Below, one piece after another: positions 2,468 through 40,046 of a stretch of DNA of 40,046 nt; the first letter of the stretch is position 1; the number at the start of each line of letters is the position of its first letter. The DNA is from a virus, in the IMG/VR virus record IMGVR_UViG_3300017971_000136, positions 1-40,046 of that record; one strand, written 5' to 3'. Made by a program: the position numbers and the translations under genes. The notes beneath the pieces are model-generated. The model worked only from the letters and a program-made list of their open reading frames with translations. It ran no database searches and had not been told where the DNA came from.

Positions 2468-2914
2468 CTATCCTCCACCGGCCACCAGGACCAGGAGAAG
2501 AGTCAACACCACACCACCGCCCAGGCCTGCACCCAGAAACCACCACCGCTGGCTCCGGTACTTCTCCGCCTCCGCCTCCGCCTTGACCCGCTTCCCCTCG
2601 GACAGGGCGAGGTCGTTTGCAGCATGGGCCACCCCGGCCCCCAGGTCCGCCAGGCAGACCTCGAGCGCCCGACCCAACCGGAGGATCCCCCGGCCGGTCT
2701 GTTGGAAGACGTCAACCGGACACTGGCTGATATACACTGATGGTGCCTGCTCTCGAATGACGCAAGAACGCTTTAGAGCCTCTGTGAGGGCCTCGGCGTC
2801 CGGATTCTCGGCGGGCCGACTCAAGGGTCGGGAACCACCACATCCGACCAGCAGGGCCAGCGGAATCAAGCAGACGATGGCAATTATTCGCCGCGCTTTC
2901 CCTTGTCGATCCAT
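2468..2914 (-). CDS. Lipoprotein with C-terminal membrane segment; u-spanin candidate
   Basis: 148 aa from the ATG at 2914. The N-terminus is a lipoprotein signal with lipobox LVGC (Cys25). The last about 25 residues are a strongly hydrophobic segment after RSQRWWF. Lipidation at one end and a membrane helix at the other is the architecture of unimolecular spanins such as T1 gp11, which fuse inner and outer membranes in the last step of Gram-negative lysis. The length is close to that of T1 gp11. The middle contains three cysteines and an Ala/Glu/Lys-rich helix. The start overlaps the end of the 2884-3177 gene by 31 bases in another frame, as in spanin gene pairs. It is the last gene of the late operon. 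The alternative is an o-spanin partner of its neighbour. Confidence 0.65.
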   Translation of the reverse strand: MDRQGKARRIIAIVCLIPLALLVGCGGSRPLSRPAENPDAEALTEALKRSCVIREQAPSVYISQCPVDVFQQTGRGILRLGRALEVCLADLGAGVAHAANDLALSEGKRVKAEAEAEKYRSQRWWFLGAGLGGGVVLTLLLVLVAGGG

Positions 2915-3177
2915 GAGTCCCAGTCCTCCTCGAGCTTCTCGTACTTCTCGTCGATCTGGTTCAGGTCTTCCTGGTGGGCCTCCTCGATCCTCTTGTCCTC
3001 TGCCTGGTGCTCCTCTGGGGTCACGGTGGGGACGGAACCCGCCGGGGCGGAGGCCTTGTCGTCCCGGCGGTTCCTCCCCATCACGAAGACAACGATCAGA
3101 ACCAGGGGGAAGATCGGAATCATCCACCAGCGTTTTTTCAGCCAGGGCCAGGCCTTGGCCTTCCACCAGTTGAGCAT
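2884..3177 (-). CDS. Inner-membrane coiled-coil protein; i-spanin-like
   Basis: 97 aa with AGGAGG close before the ATG. The N-terminus is Trp/Lys-rich, then one membrane helix (about 20-35), then a Pro/Ala linker and an acidic coiled coil (about 55-95). This is the topology of the inner-membrane spanin subunit (Rz-like), which lies anchored with a periplasmic coiled coil. The next gene, a lipoprotein, starts inside its 3' end. If that neighbour is a self-sufficient u-spanin, this one would need another role; the two could also form a classic pair. No sequence similarity to a named spanin was established. Confidence 0.55.
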   Translation of the reverse strand: MLNWWKAKAWPWLKKRWWMIPIFPLVLIVVFVMGRNRRDDKASAPAGSVPTVTPEEHQAEDKRIEEAHQEDLNQIDEKYEKLEEDWDSWIDKGKRGE

Positions 3178-3365
3178 TGGTCCTCCTTCTCCCCCGGAGG
3201 GGGTGAGGTCTGGTGGGTGCCGTTGATGTCCAGCCCCTTCCAGTCCTCCTCGGATTCGACCGGCGGTTCCCGGACACTACCCGGCCGGCGGGCGTGGATG
3301 CAGTCGTGCGGCGCCGAAGACGTCGCCGACTCGCACCACTCTAGATCGAGCCACAGCTTGGGCAT
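3138..3365 (-). CDS. Small hypothetical protein in the lysis block
   Basis: 75 aa from the ATG at 3365, with GAGGA 5 bases upstream. It begins MPKLWLDLEWCESATSSAP and turns proline/glycine-rich near the end. It overlaps the upstream zinc-ribbon gene by 25 bases and the downstream membrane gene by 40 bases. No domain is recognisable. The good ribosome site and reasonable composition in the first 55 residues support it; the last 20 residues lie in overlap and look less constrained. Confidence 0.5.
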   Translation of the reverse strand: MPKLWLDLEWCESATSSAPHDCIHARRPGSVREPPVESEEDWKGLDINGTHQTSPPPGEKEDQCSTGGRPRPGPG

Positions 3366-17184: not shown

Positions 17185-17708
17185 CAGGGAGCCTCCCCGC
17201 AGAAGTCGTCGCAGCCCTTCGGGTCCAGCACCGGCCGGCCTGCCACACATCGGTAGGCGCAGCGGGGACAGGCTCCCCAGCTTCCCTTGACCACCGAACC
17301 GTCGGGCCTCTGGCAACACACCAGGTTGAGGGGTCCAGCGTGGCCCAGGTCCACCCCGTTCATCGAGACCCCGCCGAACTTGCCGGGCGGTATCACCTGC
17401 TGGCAGTTCTGGGGGGGAGTTTCGGAAGTCCAGACAACATCCTTCCGCTCGATCCCGTCTTCGGTATTGCAGCAGATCAACATCCGGGTCCGCTTCTCGG
17501 CCTCGAGGTCCGCGACCTCCAGGGCCTTCCCGTCCTCGTCGATCAGGTTGGGTCCGCCTTCCTCGTCGATCATCAGACAGCGGTCGCCTATCGGCTGGCA
17601 TTGTTTCCCGGGACACTCTTCGGGGCAGATGGAGGAGTCGCCGGTCAGCAGAAGCACGGAGGTCCCGGCCGCCAGTACCATCACGCCTGCAAGGATTCTG
17701 TTTTTCAT
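17184..17708 (-). CDS. Secreted cysteine-rich protein
   Basis: 174 aa from ATG 17708. Residues 1-24 form a Sec signal peptide (basic start, then LAGVMVLAAGTSVLLLTG). The mature part contains 14 cysteines in pairs and clusters (CPEECPGKQC, CC twice, CPRCAYRC), suggesting disulfides in an oxidising compartment. No family was recognised. It overlaps its neighbours by 1-4 bases, so it is part of the late transcript between capsid and tail genes, an unusual place for an exported protein. Confidence 0.6.
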   Translation of the reverse strand: MKNRILAGVMVLAAGTSVLLLTGDSSICPEECPGKQCQPIGDRCLMIDEEGGPNLIDEDGKALEVADLEAEKRTRMLICCNTEDGIERKDVVWTSETPPQNCQQVIPPGKFGGVSMNGVDLGHAGPLNLVCCQRPDGSVVKGSWGACPRCAYRCVAGRPVLDPKGCDDFCGEAP

Positions 17709-19717
17709 AACCGCACCCTTTTGAAGAACTCGATCTTCTCGATGTCGACATCGGCCGCCGTCGACCCGTCGTACCCGAGATAAGCGGTCCCCGAGATGTC
17801 GTCCTGAAGGGCTCCAGTCGCCGGGGTTTCGTCGCAGGTCCAGTCGGCCGCGTCGTGCAGCTTGGCGCATACGGTCAGGACCCCCGCGTGAGACTTCATC
17901 GCCTTGACGTCCCACTGCTGACCGGGATCGGAGGCCATCGCGACCCGTGATTCTTTGCCGACAGCCCCGGAGTCGTACACGATGCAGTCAAGCTCATCGG
18001 CCGACCAGAAGAAGACGATCCGGTTCTTGTTGCCGTCCGTCCCGGGACTTACAAAGATCCACTTTTCGTTGCCGGCGTTTCCGTCTATCGGGGAGGATAC
18101 GGTCGCCTCGATGGTCCAGGGACCGCCAGCCGTGAGGGGTTGCTGGATGGTGTGGTAGAGTGCGTTCGTAGTTACGTCGGCGTCCGTGTCCGCGACTGCT
18201 AGCACCGATGTGTGAAATGTGCTTGCAGCCTGTATGGCCATTGCGGCGTCAAGATATGCCGTGTATGCAATTCCGTTGTCGTTACAGTGTAATCTAGGCT
18301 GCCATGAGTTGGTTGCTCCATTCCAAGCCGCTGCCGCTAGTGTCCCCTGTAGTTGTGTCCAATTCGCGCCGGGATTCTGCGGGCCTCCCGTCACATCTGT
18401 CCACGTAATATAGCCGGTACAATTTGCGTTGCTCCATTCAGTGATTCCGAGACTACAACTCGCCGTTCCGCTTCCCGTCCTGCCCCATGCAAATAGGGTT
18501 ACATCTTGACCGATCCAGTTTGTTTGACAGGCTCCATGTGCGTATCCATATTTAGGAGCGCCGCCACCGTTGGCAGTAAAAAGAATTGATGCCGCCCCAT
18601 GTGCTGACGCGGTTGTGGTTCTGTCTGACGTAACAGTACCAGCGCCCGCGCCGCCATTGTCTGTATGAGCCCACCCTTGACAGTTTCCCGCCCCATCATC
18701 CGTCTCGCAACTCCCCCTCCACCATTTAGACGTTAGGGCTGTTGCCGCAGTCCTTCCGGCGACCGATGTATATGTCGCGTTCGCCGGCTGGTCTACGAAG
18801 CACCCCTCGGTTGTGCTGCAGTCCTTGACCTCGATCGCCGGGGGGGAGGCGCTGACCGTGGTGGTGGTGAGTCCGCCTGTGCTGAGGCGTGCTTGGAAAT
18901 TTGCGAAGGCCTGGTCGTGTTCTCCCTCCGTCCACGCCTCGCCCTTGTAGATCCGGCAGTCCTGAAACAATCCGTTCAACCCATTGGCACCCGGGGAGAT
19001 CGAGAAGTCCTCCGACGAGTCCCAGATATCGCCCCGCCCCGCATCACTGCTGGCCGTCGCCAGGTCGTCCACGTAAAGCCGAAGTTTCGAGTTTCCCGAT
19101 CCTACATATTCATAGGTAGCGGTGAAGAACGTCGGCCGGTAGGCGGCCAGGGCGGATGCCACGTTGACGGATGAAACCTGCCCCAGGTCAACCCGGCCGG
19201 TGTCGGAGATCATGAAGTATATGGTCCCGCTGTTCTGGTACAGGAACCACCCGTCGTCGTTGTGGGCGACCCCGACCTTCCCCATGATCAGCTTGTCCGA
19301 GGCCGGGACCGCGTAGGGGGTCAGGGCACACTGGACGGTGAAGCTCCCGGCGGATCCGGAGGCGTTGTTGACCAGGTCCATATCCAGGGATCCGTCGTCC
19401 GACCTGGTCAGGCTGTCCCCGGACCCGTCCATGAGCCAGCCTTTCCCGGCTGTCCCGCTCAACCCGGCGGGCCAGGTCCCATCCCCGGTCACCAGGACAG
19501 GAGTTCCCCCGACGGTCAGGGTGTAGGAGCCCGATCCGTAGTCGTTCGCATAGGTGCCCGCGACCGCGGCGTCGAAGTTCCAGCCGGCGGTCACGGTCCC
19601 CGGTGCGTTGACATCGACGGTCCCCGAATAGGCGAAGTTTAGATCGTACCCACCCTCCGCCAGGAGGGCGAGGGGTATCAGGATGAACCCGAGGACGAGG
19701 AGCAGGATCCGCCGCAT
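17705..19717 (-). CDS. Exported multi-domain LamG/carbohydrate-binding protein, mosaic
   Basis: 670 aa from ATG 19717. Residues 1-22 are a Sec signal peptide (LLLVLGFILIPLALLA). An N-terminal LamG-type jelly roll (about 40-290) carries the usual ending FQDCRIYKGEAWTEGEHDQAF. A middle domain (about 320-510) with paired cysteines and NWTQLQGT looks like a carbohydrate-binding beta-sandwich. A second LamG-like module covers about 530-660. The DNA of the middle domain (about 18170-18760) is clearly poorer in GC than both flanks, so it appears to be a recent insertion or swap. Either the protein is on the virion with an odd N-terminus, or it is exported to the envelope or medium. Confidence 0.7.
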   Translation of the reverse strand: MRRILLLVLGFILIPLALLAEGGYDLNFAYSGTVDVNAPGTVTAGWNFDAAVAGTYANDYGSGSYTLTVGGTPVLVTGDGTWPAGLSGTAGKGWLMDGSGDSLTRSDDGSLDMDLVNNASGSAGSFTVQCALTPYAVPASDKLIMGKVGVAHNDDGWFLYQNSGTIYFMISDTGRVDLGQVSSVNVASALAAYRPTFFTATYEYVGSGNSKLRLYVDDLATASSDAGRGDIWDSSEDFSISPGANGLNGLFQDCRIYKGEAWTEGEHDQAFANFQARLSTGGLTTTTVSASPPAIEVKDCSTTEGCFVDQPANATYTSVAGRTAATALTSKWWRGSCETDDGAGNCQGWAHTDNGGAGAGTVTSDRTTTASAHGAASILFTANGGGAPKYGYAHGACQTNWIGQDVTLFAWGRTGSGTASCSLGITEWSNANCTGYITWTDVTGGPQNPGANWTQLQGTLAAAAWNGATNSWQPRLHCNDNGIAYTAYLDAAMAIQAASTFHTSVLAVADTDADVTTNALYHTIQQPLTAGGPWTIEATVSSPIDGNAGNEKWIFVSPGTDGNKNRIVFFWSADELDCIVYDSGAVGKESRVAMASDPGQQWDVKAMKSHAGVLTVCAKLHDAADWTCDETPATGALQDDISGTAYLGYDGSTAADVDIEKIEFFKRVRL

Positions 19718-19725
19718 GGCGTCAC

Positions 19726-20523
19726 CTACAGGGCCGAGTTCAGGTGTACGTAGCAGATCTCGCCCGTGGCCGTCGGTGCGATGTGGGCACACTTCGCCCC
19801 GGTCAACGGACCCTTGAAGCCTCCGTCCCCATCGCAGACCTTGATCCAGTGGCCATCCTTCGCCGTGGTGGCCGTCGGGTCCGACCCGCACAAGATCGAC
19901 GCACAATTCCCGGTCACCCGGATGTGATACCAGTCCCCGGCGGTCGGGAGGGTGTACTGCTCCGAGCTTGTGTCCAGGTCGTCGCAGTTCGATGTGGAGT
20001 CATCGTCCACCTTGGCGTAGGCTCCGTCGATGATCTCGATCGCCGTCTGGATCGCCGTGGTGTCCCCGGCGATGGTGCCGGAGTTGGCCTCCACGACTCC
20101 CAGCTGGTTTGAGGCGTTCACGTTGGCCCCGCGTTCGTTGCCGGCCGCGTCCCGAATCTGTACGTAGACGTTACGGTTACCGCTCATCCTGGCGGCCCCG
20201 ACGTCCCCCTCGTCCACACTGTCCGGGGTCGTGTCGTCGAACTCGAACCCCGCGGGGGTGACCGGGGTCGTCCCCGGCGTAAAGGCCGCGTCGTCCTTGA
20301 CGGTCGGGACTCCGCTGGTCGTCTGGGTCACCATGTAGCAATACCGCCCGGTCCCGTCGTCGACGCACCGAAACGGCCGGATCCCCTTGGTCGCCCCGGC
20401 GGACGTGAAGCTGGCCCCCTGGGAGACCTGGGCGAGGGCGTAGCCCATCAGCCCGGCCACCAGCAGGGACACCAGCAGAACGATCAGGCCCGGGTGGACC
20501 GAACCCTTGATACGCTTCCACAT
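19726..20523 (-). CDS. Exported structural-type protein
   Basis: 265 aa, GGGAGG before the ATG. A signal peptide or anchor runs to about residue 31 with a canonical signal peptidase site after ALA. The middle (about 105-145) reads DEGDVGAARMSGNRNVYVQIRD and ANVNASNQLGV, a pattern I associate with phage virion proteins of unknown function. The C-terminal half has six cysteines. The combination of virion-like body and Sec signal is unusual. Confidence 0.55.
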   Translation of the reverse strand: MWKRIKGSVHPGLIVLLVSLLVAGLMGYALAQVSQGASFTSAGATKGIRPFRCVDDGTGRYCYMVTQTTSGVPTVKDDAAFTPGTTPVTPAGFEFDDTTPDSVDEGDVGAARMSGNRNVYVQIRDAAGNERGANVNASNQLGVVEANSGTIAGDTTAIQTAIEIIDGAYAKVDDDSTSNCDDLDTSSEQYTLPTAGDWYHIRVTGNCASILCGSDPTATTAKDGHWIKVCDGDGGFKGPLTGAKCAHIAPTATGEICYVHLNSAL

Positions 20524-34986: not shown

Positions 34987-35180
34987 TCTGGGCACTCGGC
35001 CTCCTTGCACTTCGGATGCCTGACCGGCTGGCCCTTCTCGTTCTCCAGCTCCAAGGCAAACAGATCGCACCAGTCCCGCCGCCCCTCGTCTCCGATGATC
35101 TGTTTACAGACTGTCCGGCGGCCATGACACCAGCCGCAGAACTTCTTGTCCGCCTGGATCTGTACGCGGACGGTTTTCAC
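34983..35180 (-). CDS. Small cysteine-rich protein
   Basis: 65 aa from GTG 35180 with GGAGG 4 bases upstream. Cysteines at 15, 18, 25, 38, 58 and 63 (CGWC, DWC, KCKEAEC) suggest zinc binding. Charged middle. Overlaps both neighbours by 4 bases. No family recognised. Confidence 0.6.
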   Translation of the reverse strand: MKTVRVQIQADKKFCGWCHGRRTVCKQIIGDEGRRDWCDLFALELENEKGQPVRHPKCKEAECPE

Positions 35181-36160
35181 TTGGCCTCCATGAATAGCCC
35201 CAGCTGCTTTGTGCGCTTCTTGATCAGCAGGGCATAGTCCGGATTCAACTCGAATCCGATCCAGCCGCGGCCGAGGTCTTGGCAGACCTGGCCGGTGGTG
35301 CCGGATCCAAGGAAAGGATCGAGAACAATCCCCCCAGCTGGACACCCCGCCAAGATGCAGGGCTTGATCAGGTCTGGGGGAAAGGTGGCGAAGTGGGCAC
35401 CGGGGTAGGGTACCGTGGGCACCGTCCAGACGGTGCGGCGGTTGCGGCCAGTGCCGTCTGGGGTGTAGGGCACAGAGGCCCCGCGGTGCCCGTCGGGCCT
35501 GTCGAACTCTGGGCCGAGGCGGCGGTGGGTGTTTCCACTGGCCCGCTCCGTGGAAGGCTCCCTGACCGCCTCCCCGTCGTAGTAGTACCGCTCAGACTTC
35601 GACAACAAGAACAGGTACTCGTGGGCCTTTGTCGGCCTGTCTGTCACCGACTCAGGCATCGGGTTGGGTTTGCTCCAGATGATATCCGATCGCAAATACC
35701 ACCCGTCCGCCTGGAGGGCGAAGGCCACACGCCAGGGGACACCCACAAGATCCTTGGGCTTGAGGCCGGGGGGGATGTGTTTTTCTGCTCGGGGGATCTC
35801 CCCGTCTGCGTCACAATTCACGGCCCGCGGGTTCTTCCGGGGAGCCATCCGATCCGCCAGCGCCTTCAAGTTCTTCTGGGGTTGTTGTGTCCCCTGATTG
35901 GCATAACAATCCCCCAGGTTGAGCCACAGCGTCCCGTCTGCCCGCAGCGCCCGCCTCAACTCCTGGAAGATCTCCACCAGCCGCTCCACGTACTCCTCCG
36001 GCGTCTTCTCCAGCCCCAGCTGGCCCTCCACTCCGTAGTCCCTCAGTCCCCAGTAGGGCGGGCTCGTCACAATGCAGTGGACGGACTCGTCTGGAAGCTG
36101 GCGCGCCAGCTCGAGCGCGTCTCCGAAGGCGGGGCGGTTCGTGTGGAAGGGTCCGATCAA
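35177..36160 (-). CDS. DNA (amino) methyltransferase, TSPPY class
   Basis: 327 aa from TTG 36160 (GGAGGGG 5 bases upstream, TTGA overlap with the preceding stop). Motif IV TSPPYW at 32-37 near the N-terminus and motif I DPFLGSGTTG at 281-290 near the C-terminus give the beta-class order, so it methylates an exocyclic amino group (N4-cytosine or N6-adenine). The middle carries a target-recognition region with IIWSKPNPMPESVTDRP. No restriction enzyme is encoded nearby, so it is an orphan, probably protecting phage DNA from host restriction or marking it. Confidence 0.9.
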   Translation of the reverse strand: MIGPFHTNRPAFGDALELARQLPDESVHCIVTSPPYWGLRDYGVEGQLGLEKTPEEYVERLVEIFQELRRALRADGTLWLNLGDCYANQGTQQPQKNLKALADRMAPRKNPRAVNCDADGEIPRAEKHIPPGLKPKDLVGVPWRVAFALQADGWYLRSDIIWSKPNPMPESVTDRPTKAHEYLFLLSKSERYYYDGEAVREPSTERASGNTHRRLGPEFDRPDGHRGASVPYTPDGTGRNRRTVWTVPTVPYPGAHFATFPPDLIKPCILAGCPAGGIVLDPFLGSGTTGQVCQDLGRGWIGFELNPDYALLIKKRTKQLGLFMEAK

Positions 36161-36570
36161 CTCATCCCCTCCACGTCCTGGAGCATCGACCAGTTCTCCC
36201 CCTCCTGCTTCTGGATTCGGTTCCAGTCCCGGACGTACCGGGAGACCTTCCGGGGTGTCCACTTGCGTTTCGGCTTGCCGGTGGGACAGCGGCCGGTCTC
36301 TTTCCTCACCTTCATGTGGGCACCGTAGCCGGCGGCCCGCATCCTCTTCCCGCAGTAGGGGCAGGTTTTACGGGCGAAGCGGCCGTCCGTCTTCTTCGGC
36401 TTGGGCTTGCCCCGCTTCCCGATCTGATCGTCGGTCAAGATCCTCCGGACGTTCGAGGCGTTCGCCCCGCACCGCTCCGCTAGCTCCATCGAGTTGAGGT
36501 CCGGGTTCGCCCTCGCGGCCTCAAGGACCAGCTGCCGCTTGGCGTCCGCTTCTGTCTTTCGCATTCGCAT
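36157..36570 (-). CDS. HTH protein with C-terminal zinc finger
   Basis: 137 aa from ATG 36570 (GGGAGG 7 bases upstream). N-terminal HTH (ELAERCGANASNVRRIL) closely similar to the product of the next gene upstream: about 19 of the first 46 residues are identical by hand alignment. A C70-x2-C73-x11-H85-x9-C95 zinc motif follows, then a basic helical C-terminus. Perhaps a transcription regulator or a DNA-binding partner of the methyltransferase encoded next. Confidence 0.6.
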   Translation of the reverse strand: MRMRKTEADAKRQLVLEAARANPDLNSMELAERCGANASNVRRILTDDQIGKRGKPKPKKTDGRFARKTCPYCGKRMRAAGYGAHMKVRKETGRCPTGKPKRKWTPRKVSRYVRDWNRIQKQEGENWSMLQDVEGMS

Positions 36571-36827
36571 CAAAGAGCCTCCCTTGTTATCCCGTGGTAT
36601 CCCCACTCGGGATCGCGTGGCAGGTTGACCAGCTTCCGGGCGTCCTTCTCTTCCAGGAGATCCCGCTGCTCCAGCTTGATCCCCGCCTTCTTGCAGATAG
36701 ATCTGATCGTGGCGGTCGAGACACGGAAACGCTCGGCCAGAAGTCGGGCGGTCAAGTGCGGATTCTTGCGGACGGCCTCCAGGATGCGGAGCCGGCGGGC
36801 CTCACTTTGGGCTTTTCGTGTTCTCAA
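36570..36827 (-). CDS. HTH protein, paralogue of the next gene
   Basis: 85 aa from TTG 36827 (AGAGAGG about 6 bases upstream). MRTRKAQSEARRLRILEAV then HLTARLLAERFRVSTATIRSICKKAG is a clear helix-turn-helix, with a short acidic C-terminus. Starts inside the 3' end of the preceding gene and ends in TGATG with the next. Tandem duplication with 36157-36570 followed by gain of a zinc finger, or loss here. Confidence 0.6.
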   Translation of the reverse strand: MRTRKAQSEARRLRILEAVRKNPHLTARLLAERFRVSTATIRSICKKAGIKLEQRDLLEEKDARKLVNLPRDPEWGYHGITREAL

Positions 36828-38002: not shown

Positions 38003-38176
38003 TCAATCGACCTCCTCCTGGTCTCCGTTTTTGTTCACCCTCTGCCGATAGGGGTTGTTGATCTTCTTCTTCAGCATGTAGCCCCGGCCGTTGCACCGCG
38101 GGCAGGTGTCCCCGTTCAAATGTCCTGCACCCAGACAGAGCTTGCAGGGCGTCCGCTCCAGTCGGTAGGTGTTCAT
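38003..38176 (-). CDS. Small DnaJ-type zinc finger protein
   Basis: 57 aa from ATG 38176, GGAGG 7 bases upstream, ATGA overlap with the replication initiator. Residues 11-33 read CxLCxGAGxL...CPRCNGRGY, two CxxCxGxG knuckles (C11/C14, C25/C28) as in DnaJ. Basic C-terminus. A chaperone- or DNA-related partner of the replication protein is possible. Confidence 0.65.
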   Translation of the reverse strand: MNTYRLERTPCKLCLGAGHLNGDTCPRCNGRGYMLKKKINNPYRQRVNKNGDQEEVD

Positions 38177-39585
38177 CCGCTCGCCTCCTTGTTGATCGCT
38201 TCCCTTGCAGCTGCGAGTCCCTTCTTCGCCGCGGCCTCTGCTTCTTCCCTGCTGATCTTCGGCTCCTCCGGTTTCCGCTCCACCCGGCGCCGAGGTGGTC
38301 TTCCGTGCCGGGCGTACTCGAACACGCGGTCCAGGTCGACCTTGGCCGTCTGGGTGCGGTTGCCTTCTCGAACTGGCGGGAAGACGTGTCGAAACTCCCG
38401 GCCGTGCTGGGCCCCGTCCTTGCTTGCGATCTTGTGGTGACCTCGGATCGCAGCCTTGCAGACGTCCCACCCTCCGGCCGGGTGGCGGAGAACCTCCAGG
38501 ATCCGGGTGAGGTTGTCTCCGCGGGGAATCACCGGGGCGATCTCCCGCCCCCAGGTGTTGGCGTAGTATTGCTGGAGTTCCTGGACTTCGACCAGTTCGT
38601 TCGAGTCGGCCCTGGTGGGTATCAGCGCCCGGTCTCCGATCTGGGATTCCAGGATCTCGGATAGACGCGAGGGGGAATCACCCCGGGGTCTGCAGCTAGC
38701 TTCTGCTCGGTCTTGAGCGGCGGACTGCTGGGGGTCTGGGGTGCTGCAGTCCCCCGGGGTGTCGGGGGCTTGGTCGATAACGTGGATCTTTTTGGGAGGC
38801 CGAGCCCCGACGGGGGCAGGGGGAGTAGTTGAAGCACCCCCGCCGGGGTCGGCAGGTTCTCGAGGCCGGCCCGCGTTCGAGGGGGACACCCGCGGGCGGG
38901 TGCCGTCTCCGGCTTGCCCCCTATGGTCAGCCTCCGATGAGGTGCCCTTGCCGGCGTCTCCCGGTGGTTGGGGAGGGTCCGAGAGGTGGCCGGGTCGGGC
39001 TAAGGGTAAGGGGTCCGGGTTCGTCGTCGGGCCCCGGTCTTTATCAGATTTTTGAGGGGAGGGGGTGGGGATCCTTTCCCTCCTCCCTTTTCCCTTTTCT
39101 ACTTCTACTTCAACTTCCGCGCGCGCGGAAGGGTCCGGATCTTGGTTGGATCTTAGGCCAGACTTAGATCGATCTAAGATCGGAGTAAGATCCCCCAGGT
39201 CTCCGCCTTGGTTCAGCTGGTGCAGGGGTGGCCGGTATTCCTGGGGACGCTTCGATCTGTTCTTGCACTTGGCCCCGTTCTCCTCGTCGTGGCCCACCAC
39301 GTAGATCCAGGGGTTACTCTGGATCCACCACCGGGTGACCAGGCCGACCTCGATCAACTCCTCGACGGCGGCCAGGAAGTCGTCGGGCCCGTGGTGCTCG
39401 TCCTTCCTGCCAAGCTCGGCCTTGAGGGTCCACTTGTCGCCCTCCATCATGCCCCAGCTGTCGACTGAGGCCGCCAGGGTCAGGTAGACCCGGATCGGGC
39501 ACAGTGGACCCGGCCTGCATAGTGTAGCGATCTTGTCCGACTGATTGATCTTGCTTCCCTTGATGACCCAGCCTTCAGCCCTCAT
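38173..39585 (-). CDS. Replication initiator (lambda O-like organisation)
   Basis: 470 aa. The N-terminal about 110 residues (LTLAASVDSWGMMEGDKWTLKAELGR...FLAAVEELIEVGLVTRWW) look like the winged-helix domain of phage replisome organisers. A long Pro/Ser/Arg-rich linker follows (about 115-320); the C-terminal part contains LQQYYANTWGREIAPVIPRGDNLTRILEVLRH and an Ala/Glu/Lys helix. The gene contains an iteron cluster and two perfect palindromes (39114-39193), so the origin is inside its own initiator gene as in lambda. The initiator would load the host helicase. Upstream is a long hairpin with a fifth iteron copy. Confidence 0.7.
   Translation of the reverse strand: MRAEGWVIKGSKINQSDKIATLCRPGPLCPIRVYLTLAASVDSWGMMEGDKWTLKAELGRKDEHHGPDDFLAAVEELIEVGLVTRWWIQSNPWIYVVGHDEENGAKCKNRSKRPQEYRPPLHQLNQGGDLGDLTPILDRSKSGLRSNQDPDPSARAEVEVEVEKGKGRRERIPTPSPQKSDKDRGPTTNPDPLPLARPGHLSDPPQPPGDAGKGTSSEADHRGQAGDGTRPRVSPSNAGRPREPADPGGGASTTPPAPVGARPPKKIHVIDQAPDTPGDCSTPDPQQSAAQDRAEASCRPRGDSPSRLSEILESQIGDRALIPTRADSNELVEVQELQQYYANTWGREIAPVIPRGDNLTRILEVLRHPAGGWDVCKAAIRGHHKIASKDGAQHGREFRHVFPPVREGNRTQTAKVDLDRVFEYARHGRPPRRRVERKPEEPKISREEAEAAAKKGLAAAREAINKEASG
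39073..39193. other. Candidate replication origin with iterons
   Basis: From left to right: a pyrimidine-rich plus-strand tract (39073-39113), a perfect 18-bp palindrome CTTCCGCGCGCGCGGAAG (39114-39131), iterons GGATCTTGG (39137) and GGATCTTAGG (39148), a perfect 16-bp palindrome CTTAGATCGATCTAAG (39163-39178), and two inverted iterons (39174-39183, 39185-39193; inverse of GATCTTAG and GGATCTTAC). Both pairs are spaced 11 bp. This layout is analogous to ori lambda: iterons within the initiator gene next to a strand-asymmetric, easily melted tract. Confidence 0.7.
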
Positions 39586-39612: not shown

Positions 39613-39679
39613 GGGGCGCCGGCCGGCTTGATCCTTGAACTCGGAGGATCTTACAATGCGGGGGCGCGGCCGGCGCCCC
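39613..39679. other. Long hairpin upstream of the replication gene, carrying an iteron copy
   Basis: Arms 39613-39625 and 39667-39679 are a perfect 13-bp inverted repeat (core GGGGCGCCGGCC), with a nested GATCCT/AGGATC stem. The loop contains GGATCTTAC (39646-39654), identical to one origin iteron. The element fills most of the 99-base gap before the replication gene, so binding of the initiator could repress its own synthesis. No T-run, hence not an intrinsic terminator. Confidence 0.55.
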
Positions 39680-39684
39680 AAGTC

Positions 39685-39936
39685 TTACAGGTTCGCCTGA
39701 GCTCTACTCTTGCCGGAGGTGCTCGGCGTCCTGGGTGCCTGTCGCGCCTTCTTCTGCTTCCCTTCTTCTCTTCGCTTCCTTCCTCTTGGCTTCTCTCTCT
39801 TGTGCAGCAAATCTCTCGCACTCTCGATGCCGCGCCTCCCTCTCTTCGTCGTATATCGCGGGTAAGTCTCCTTACGCTGCGGGCCGCACTTGGAGCAGAA
39901 GTCGGAGCCATATTCCGCTTCGTACAGTATCGGCAT
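39685..39936 (-). CDS. Small basic early protein
   Basis: 83 aa from ATG 39936, with GGTGAG 7 bases upstream; an in-frame ATG 5 codons earlier would overlap the preceding gene. A CSKC motif (residues 14-17) near the N-terminus, then a strongly basic, probably disordered remainder (KREKPRGRKRREEGKQKKARQAP). It follows the KPGAEKI-motif gene across the circle junction. Possibly a nucleic-acid-binding protein. Confidence 0.55.
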   Translation of the reverse strand: MPILYEAEYGSDFCSKCGPQRKETYPRYTTKRGRRGIESARDLLHKREKPRGRKRREEGKQKKARQAPRTPSTSGKSRAQANL

Positions 39937-40046
39937 TTCATCACTCACCATCCAACGGTAGACCCCGCTGGGGGTCGTAGCGGCTGTCGCCCATCTTGTG
40001 GTCGAGGACGTTCAGGAGCCCTTCGTATTCGTCGATGGTGAGATCC
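39924..40046. repeat. Terminal direct repeat (right copy)
   Basis: Exact copy of 1-123. Bases 39941-40046 therefore repeat the 3' end of the early gene at 18-1199 (minus strand), and 39936 is the duplicate of position 13. Joining the copies restores continuous genes across the ends. Confidence 0.97.

Follow-up and report, generated by a model that had tools for sequence, protein, structure and literature searches.

The window analysed here, the whole stretch of 40,046 bases, begins and ends with the same 123 bp (bases 1-123 are identical to bases 39924-40046), and the record is therefore taken to be a complete phage genome, circular (or else terminally redundant), with a circle of 39,923 bp. 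Nearly all likely genes of the window are carried by the minus strand. The phage is an orphan, since single-sequence scans of 2.9 million viral contigs gave no significant relative for its terminase, for the 655-aa protein beside the terminase or for the major head protein. Near the right end lie a gene for a putative replication initiator, a set of repeats and palindromes within this gene, and a 99-bp gap upstream of it. The features, with the basis of each in brackets, are:

38173-39585, minus strand: putative replication initiator of the replisome-organizer type, 470 aa (open reading frame, phrog_1408, profile of relatives, AlphaFold)
39280-39558, minus strand: winged-helix DNA-binding domain, residues ~10-102 of the initiator (profile, AF2, BFVD)
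39077-39121, minus strand, which is the coding strand: purine-rich hexamer tract (GAAGTTGAAGTAGAAGTAGAAAAGGG..., encoding EVEVEVEKGK) (periodicity, purine content)
39114-39131, no strand: perfect 18-bp palindrome CTTCCGCGCGCGCGGAAG, between the iterons and the tract (script)
39137-39145, plus strand: iteron 1, GGATCTTGG (direct reading and script)
39148-39156, plus strand: iteron 2, GGATCTTAG, 11 bp from iteron 1 (direct reading and script)
39163-39178, no strand: perfect 16-bp palindrome CTTAGATCGATCTAAG at the dyad axis (script)
39174-39182, minus strand: iteron 3, inverted, CGATCTTAG (direct reading and script)
39185-39193, minus strand: iteron 4, inverted, GGATCTTAC, 11 bp from iteron 3 (direct reading and script)
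39646-39654, plus strand: fifth repeat copy, GGATCTTAC, in the gap upstream of the initiator gene (script; outside the coordinates of the first-pass annotation)

Directly downstream of the initiator gene lies an open reading frame (38003-38173, minus strand) for a small protein whose CxxCxGxG zinc finger is DnaJ-like, and the match of this protein to the Pfam family DnaJ_CXXCXGXG (E=1.6e-6) falls just under the curated cutoff. Nothing in the window was recognised as a helicase loader, the frame after the initiator coding for this zinc-finger protein instead. The open reading frame that follows the initiator gene of one relative, L086, carries the P-loop GPSGAGKT and resembles an ATP-binding loader of the DnaC type.

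The initiator consists of an N-terminal winged helix, a long low-complexity linker and an uncharacterised C-terminal domain. No Pfam match was obtained for the 470-aa protein, and in the examples tried there was no significant Pfam match for the winged-helix domain of this initiator family either. A weak match was found to phrog_1408, annotated as 'replication initiation protein' (E=0.006). An N-terminal profile was then built from 34 PHROG 1408 members of bacterial genomes and searched against every open frame of the window, where the only clear match was the initiator (E=6e-6, residues 34-99), the next open frame scoring 0.24. With an alignment of 48 viral relatives, AlphaFold predicted a winged helix (pLDDT 76.8 overall and 84-94 over residues 21-100); the run from the single sequence reached a pLDDT of only 35, and the alignment-based model was used instead. 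The fold is not independent of the profile result, because the alignment given to AF2 was the family's own and leans the prediction towards the family. The best structural matches in BFVD were named 'Replisome organizer' (E=6e-7, TM 0.73), and those in the PDB were generic winged helices, TubR- and AspA-type domains among them. The profile and the predicted fold place the initiator, as a remote member, among the PHROG-1408-type winged-helix initiators, the identity in this assignment being ~10-28%. It shares with that family and with the viral loci gathered below a MARIRTIKPEFW-type winged helix, repeats 10-60 codons behind it, the 11-bp pitch and a downstream tract, and it differs from the phrog_1408 family in being without the MARxRxIKPxF start.

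The four 9-bp repeats occupy 39137-39193, corresponding to codons 131-150 of the initiator gene. The first-pass annotation had described them as four copies of GGATCTTRS, two direct and two inverted on an 11-bp pitch. The coordinates bear out the orientation and the pitch in both pairs, and three copies fit the consensus; the third, CGATCTTAG, lies outside it because its first base is C. Both palindromes are perfect, as had been claimed. The symmetry of the site is stronger than described at that time, since a single axis at 39170/39171 is common to the 16-bp palindrome and to repeats 2 and 4, and 18 of the 23 positions are complementary. The left half of CTTAGATCGATCTAAG (39171-39163), read on the minus strand, gives CGATCTAAG, which amounts to a third, degenerate inverted repeat that keeps the 11-bp pitch. 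The CTTCCGCGCGCGCGGAAG palindrome forms a hairpin in the single-strand fold (the entire segment having a z of -3.4). Elsewhere in the window no further cluster of repeats was found, and there were no DnaA boxes (up to one mismatch) near 39 kb, the window containing 5 of these against ~6 expected by chance. By direct reading, the 57 bp between 39137 and 39193 hold six GATC sites, while fewer than one would be expected from the 469 of the genome. The phage also encodes an N6/N4 DNA methyltransferase (35177-36262), and methylation control of the proposed origin is conceivable.

The departure of this arrangement from chance was assessed on two levels. Over the whole window, the dyad with 18 of 23 positions is the best of all centres in 40,046 bases, and order-2 shuffles yield 0.02 such centres per window. 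Within the initiator gene, synonymous-codon shuffles gave p=0.0045 for the dyad score, p=0.002 for clusters of at least two direct and at least two inverted 6-mers, and p=0.0012 for repeated 7-mer pairs when codons 110-175 only were considered; a separate repeated-pair test on the whole gene gave p=0.01. The repeats thus go beyond what the encoded protein requires (p 0.001-0.01 over the synonymous shuffles), and the earlier view that the arrangement is unlikely to be accidental is upheld by the dyad maximum and by the p values of 0.001-0.005 for dyad and clusters.

Past the iterons in the coding direction follow the 18-bp palindrome and then the purine-rich tract, which at codons 154-169 has a 6-nt periodicity of 21/30 and contains 93% purine in 30 nt. 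Its AT content is at best 57.5% in 40 nt, with a genome mean of 37%, and it is not among the most AT-rich stretches of the genome. Because the AT content is moderate, the purine asymmetry and the 6-nt repetition may outweigh easy melting. We propose that the tract is an element for strand opening or for the capture of a single strand. Dipeptide runs (EVEVEV, PSPSPS, ESESES, DKDKDK) stand behind the winged helix in L090, L105, L115 and other relatives, and such runs seem to result from the translation of 6-nt DNA repeats.

Attempts to find close relatives of the initiator were not successful. There was no significant relative in the single-protein scan of viral contigs, in the search of the winged helix against genome contigs, or among phage records searched by tblastn with the complete initiator and with each of its halves, and a pattern scan of viral contigs did not find the exact four-repeat layout. 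For lack of a close relative the layout was examined in distant ones, namely 117 initiator genes from bacterial genomes and viral contigs, 88 of them non-redundant; the scans used the conserved stretches 'PLARLL' or 'FDDWGR', and the set is biased towards sequences that have them. Repeated 7-mers, direct or inverted, within 100 nt were scored against the synonymous shuffles of each gene, with a cut-off of p<=0.02. As a positive control, the test detected lambda gene O at its known iterons (p<0.005). Significant repeat clusters were present in 69 of the 88 distant relatives and in 6 of 73 control genes (Fisher p=1e-20), the controls being other genes of the same loci which do not overlap the initiator, that is, neighbouring genes and not length-matched disordered linkers. 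The start of the cluster is 10-60 codons past the winged helix in 67 of the 69 genes. The commonest distance between direct copies is 11 bp (32/69 genes), and secondary peaks occur at 21-22 and 33. Strong 6-nt periodicity marks a downstream tract in 27 of the 88 relatives and 2 of the 73 controls, and a 30-nt stretch of at least 90% purine or pyrimidine occurs in 36 relatives and in none of the controls (0/73). In all 24 genes with clear repeats and a clear tract, the tract starts no further upstream than the cluster. The gene in the window shows the same layout, with its cluster from codon 124, ~22 codons behind the winged helix, an 11-bp pitch, a hexamer score of 21 and 93% purine. These relatives, all of them distant, preserve the architecture, but the repeat sequence varies between genes. 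Since the layout is found in most of ~90 distant viral genes, it seems to be a general design and not an isolated case, and this recurrence across the family is a more interesting result than the single site. No account of the family-wide layout was found in the open-licence literature that was searched, where the in-gene origins of lambda, Stx phages and SPP1 are described.

The repeats could instead be a transcriptional operator, serving autorepression by the winged-helix protein or binding another regulator of the phage, with no origin at this place. Repressors commonly have winged helices, the phage has genes for further small winged-helix proteins (36570-36827 and 36157-36606), and the fifth copy, GGATCTTAC, in the gap upstream of the initiator gene is possibly an autoregulatory site. 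However, the cluster lies 390-450 bp inside the coding region and not at a promoter, and upstream copies are no general feature of the relatives (5/62 upstream versus 2/62 downstream), which speaks against the upstream copy as a general signal for autoregulation. The fixed order of winged helix, repeats and tract in relatives of many groups also suits an origin better, and we regard an operator as improbable. Around the fifth copy (39613-39679), two perfect 13-bp GC-rich inverted arms, GGGGCGCCGGCCG, stand 41 bp apart and could be a terminator or a regulatory hairpin.

Still less credit can be given to chance or a low-complexity coding artefact, in which a biased linker would by itself yield repeats and palindromes. 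Single palindromes are indeed near the chance level, a longest palindrome of at least 18 occurring in 2% of synonymous shuffles, and the genome holds one more 18-mer and one more 16-mer palindrome; one of the codon-shuffle tests also reached p=0.01 only. Codon use at the site is unusual (GC3 0.40 against 0.81 expected, Z -4.8), but this was rejected as a stand-alone proof and is not relied upon, because other genes contain stretches that are equally or more anomalous. Against an artefact stand the whole-genome maximum of the dyad and the low p values for dyad and clusters under synonymous shuffling, and the position, pitch and order of the elements are predicted by 69 relatives, with clusters in only 6 of the 73 same-locus controls. 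On the minus strand, 17705-19906 and 2468-3277 have codon use more aberrant than that of the site (20-codon Z down to -6.3) and possibly represent wrong frames, recent acquisitions or hidden DNA elements.

The least probable reading is that of a centromere-like partition site, or a packaging or recombination site, lying in the gene by accident: plasmid centromeres also have iterated short repeats bound by winged-helix proteins, in line with the TubR- and AspA-type domains among the PDB matches, but no scanned protein of the window was recognised as a Par ATPase, and the location in an initiator-type gene with a downstream tract recurs across the family.

An iteron-type origin inside the initiator gene, as the first-pass annotation had suggested, is thus the reading that we favour, and it is very probable that the site serves as an in-gene origin of the theta type, at which the initiator would bind the repeats, open or capture a strand and recruit a helicase or its loader. 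The initiator-type winged helix, the position of the repeats as in 67 of the 69 relatives, the commonest pitch and the tract support this reading, while binding and firing are inferred by analogy. Cumulative skew, which had been suggested as a check, gave extremes of the detrended GC and purine skews near 4.2 kb and 24 kb and no signal at the site, and is uninformative here because nearly all genes are on one strand.

Among known systems, the best explanation is that the site would work like ori lambda and SPP1 oriL. In lambda, dimers of the O protein bind iterons inside the gene and open the neighbouring tract (PMC5043065; PMC7466680). The proposed parallel to ori lambda holds for the position within the gene behind the DNA-binding domain and for the downstream tract: in lambda, as in the lambdoid and Stx phages, the initiator gene contains the origin, immediately after the part for the N-terminal DNA-binding domain, with the iterons at codons 117-144 compared with codons 131-150 here, and in both an asymmetric tract follows in the coding direction, AT-rich in lambda and purine-rich with moderate AT content here. 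The repeats of ori lambda are bound by the product of the gene in which they lie, which was demonstrated for lambda and is presumed for the present protein. The lambda iterons are 18-19 bp long, each being an inverted repeat, with a start-to-start spacing of 20-24 (PMC5043065), whereas the units here have 9 bp and an 11-bp pitch and are set two by two around one dyad. Membership in the lambda O family was rejected, as there is no homology and unit length and spacing are different; no O-type PHROG match was found for the initiator, and lambda O has no detectable sequence relation to the winged-helix family (hhalign probability 0.1%).

In SPP1, gp38 binds the oriL repeats inside gene 38, and a helicase loader and the host replisome are recruited (PMC6316719). 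As here, the repeats of oriL lie within a replisome-organizer gene, and they are direct repeats adjoining an unwinding element. A further origin of SPP1, oriR, lies at another place, whereas a single repeat cluster was found in the window. In iteron plasmid origins, the initiator binds short repeats that are phased with the DNA helix and lie next to the region where the strands open (PMC5043065). Those of P1, F, R6K and RK2 have the short helix-phased repeats in common with this site. Their repeats are mostly direct, 17-22 bp long and outside the rep gene, and DnaA boxes are used, in contrast to the present site with none nearby. Origins inside the initiator gene are a known kind, of which this site is a variant that combines 9-bp units on an 11-bp pitch with a single dyad and a purine hexamer tract.

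On these analogies, the product of 38173-39585 would bind the 9-bp repeats through its N-terminal winged helix. The 11-bp pitch would place the repeats on one face of the helix, two plus two in inverted orientation, so that a symmetric initiator complex could assemble on the dyad. A strand would be opened or captured at the neighbouring purine-rich tract, and the C-terminal part of the initiator may then recruit the helicase or its loader. Because the DNA of the repeats encodes the linker, the protein can tolerate the residues that they dictate. It is possible, if rather doubtful, that there is a large initiator family with a standard cassette inside the gene, in which repeats of mixed orientation on an 11-bp pitch are followed by a hexamer tract that captures a single strand in the manner of DnaA-trios, the linker being largely a by-product and the origin readable from the gene. 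The tract of such a cassette would be purine-asymmetric, not especially AT-rich, and would act by repeated capture, not as a simple easy-melting region.

For most sequenced phages, we know of no identified origin. If the layout holds, the origin would be predictable from one gene for a large group of uncultivated phages, and each predicted origin could be tested on a plasmid. The many winged helices paired with their own repeats may then lead to a recognition code, and the family would clearly illustrate how a DNA site can shape the protein linker that coincides with it.
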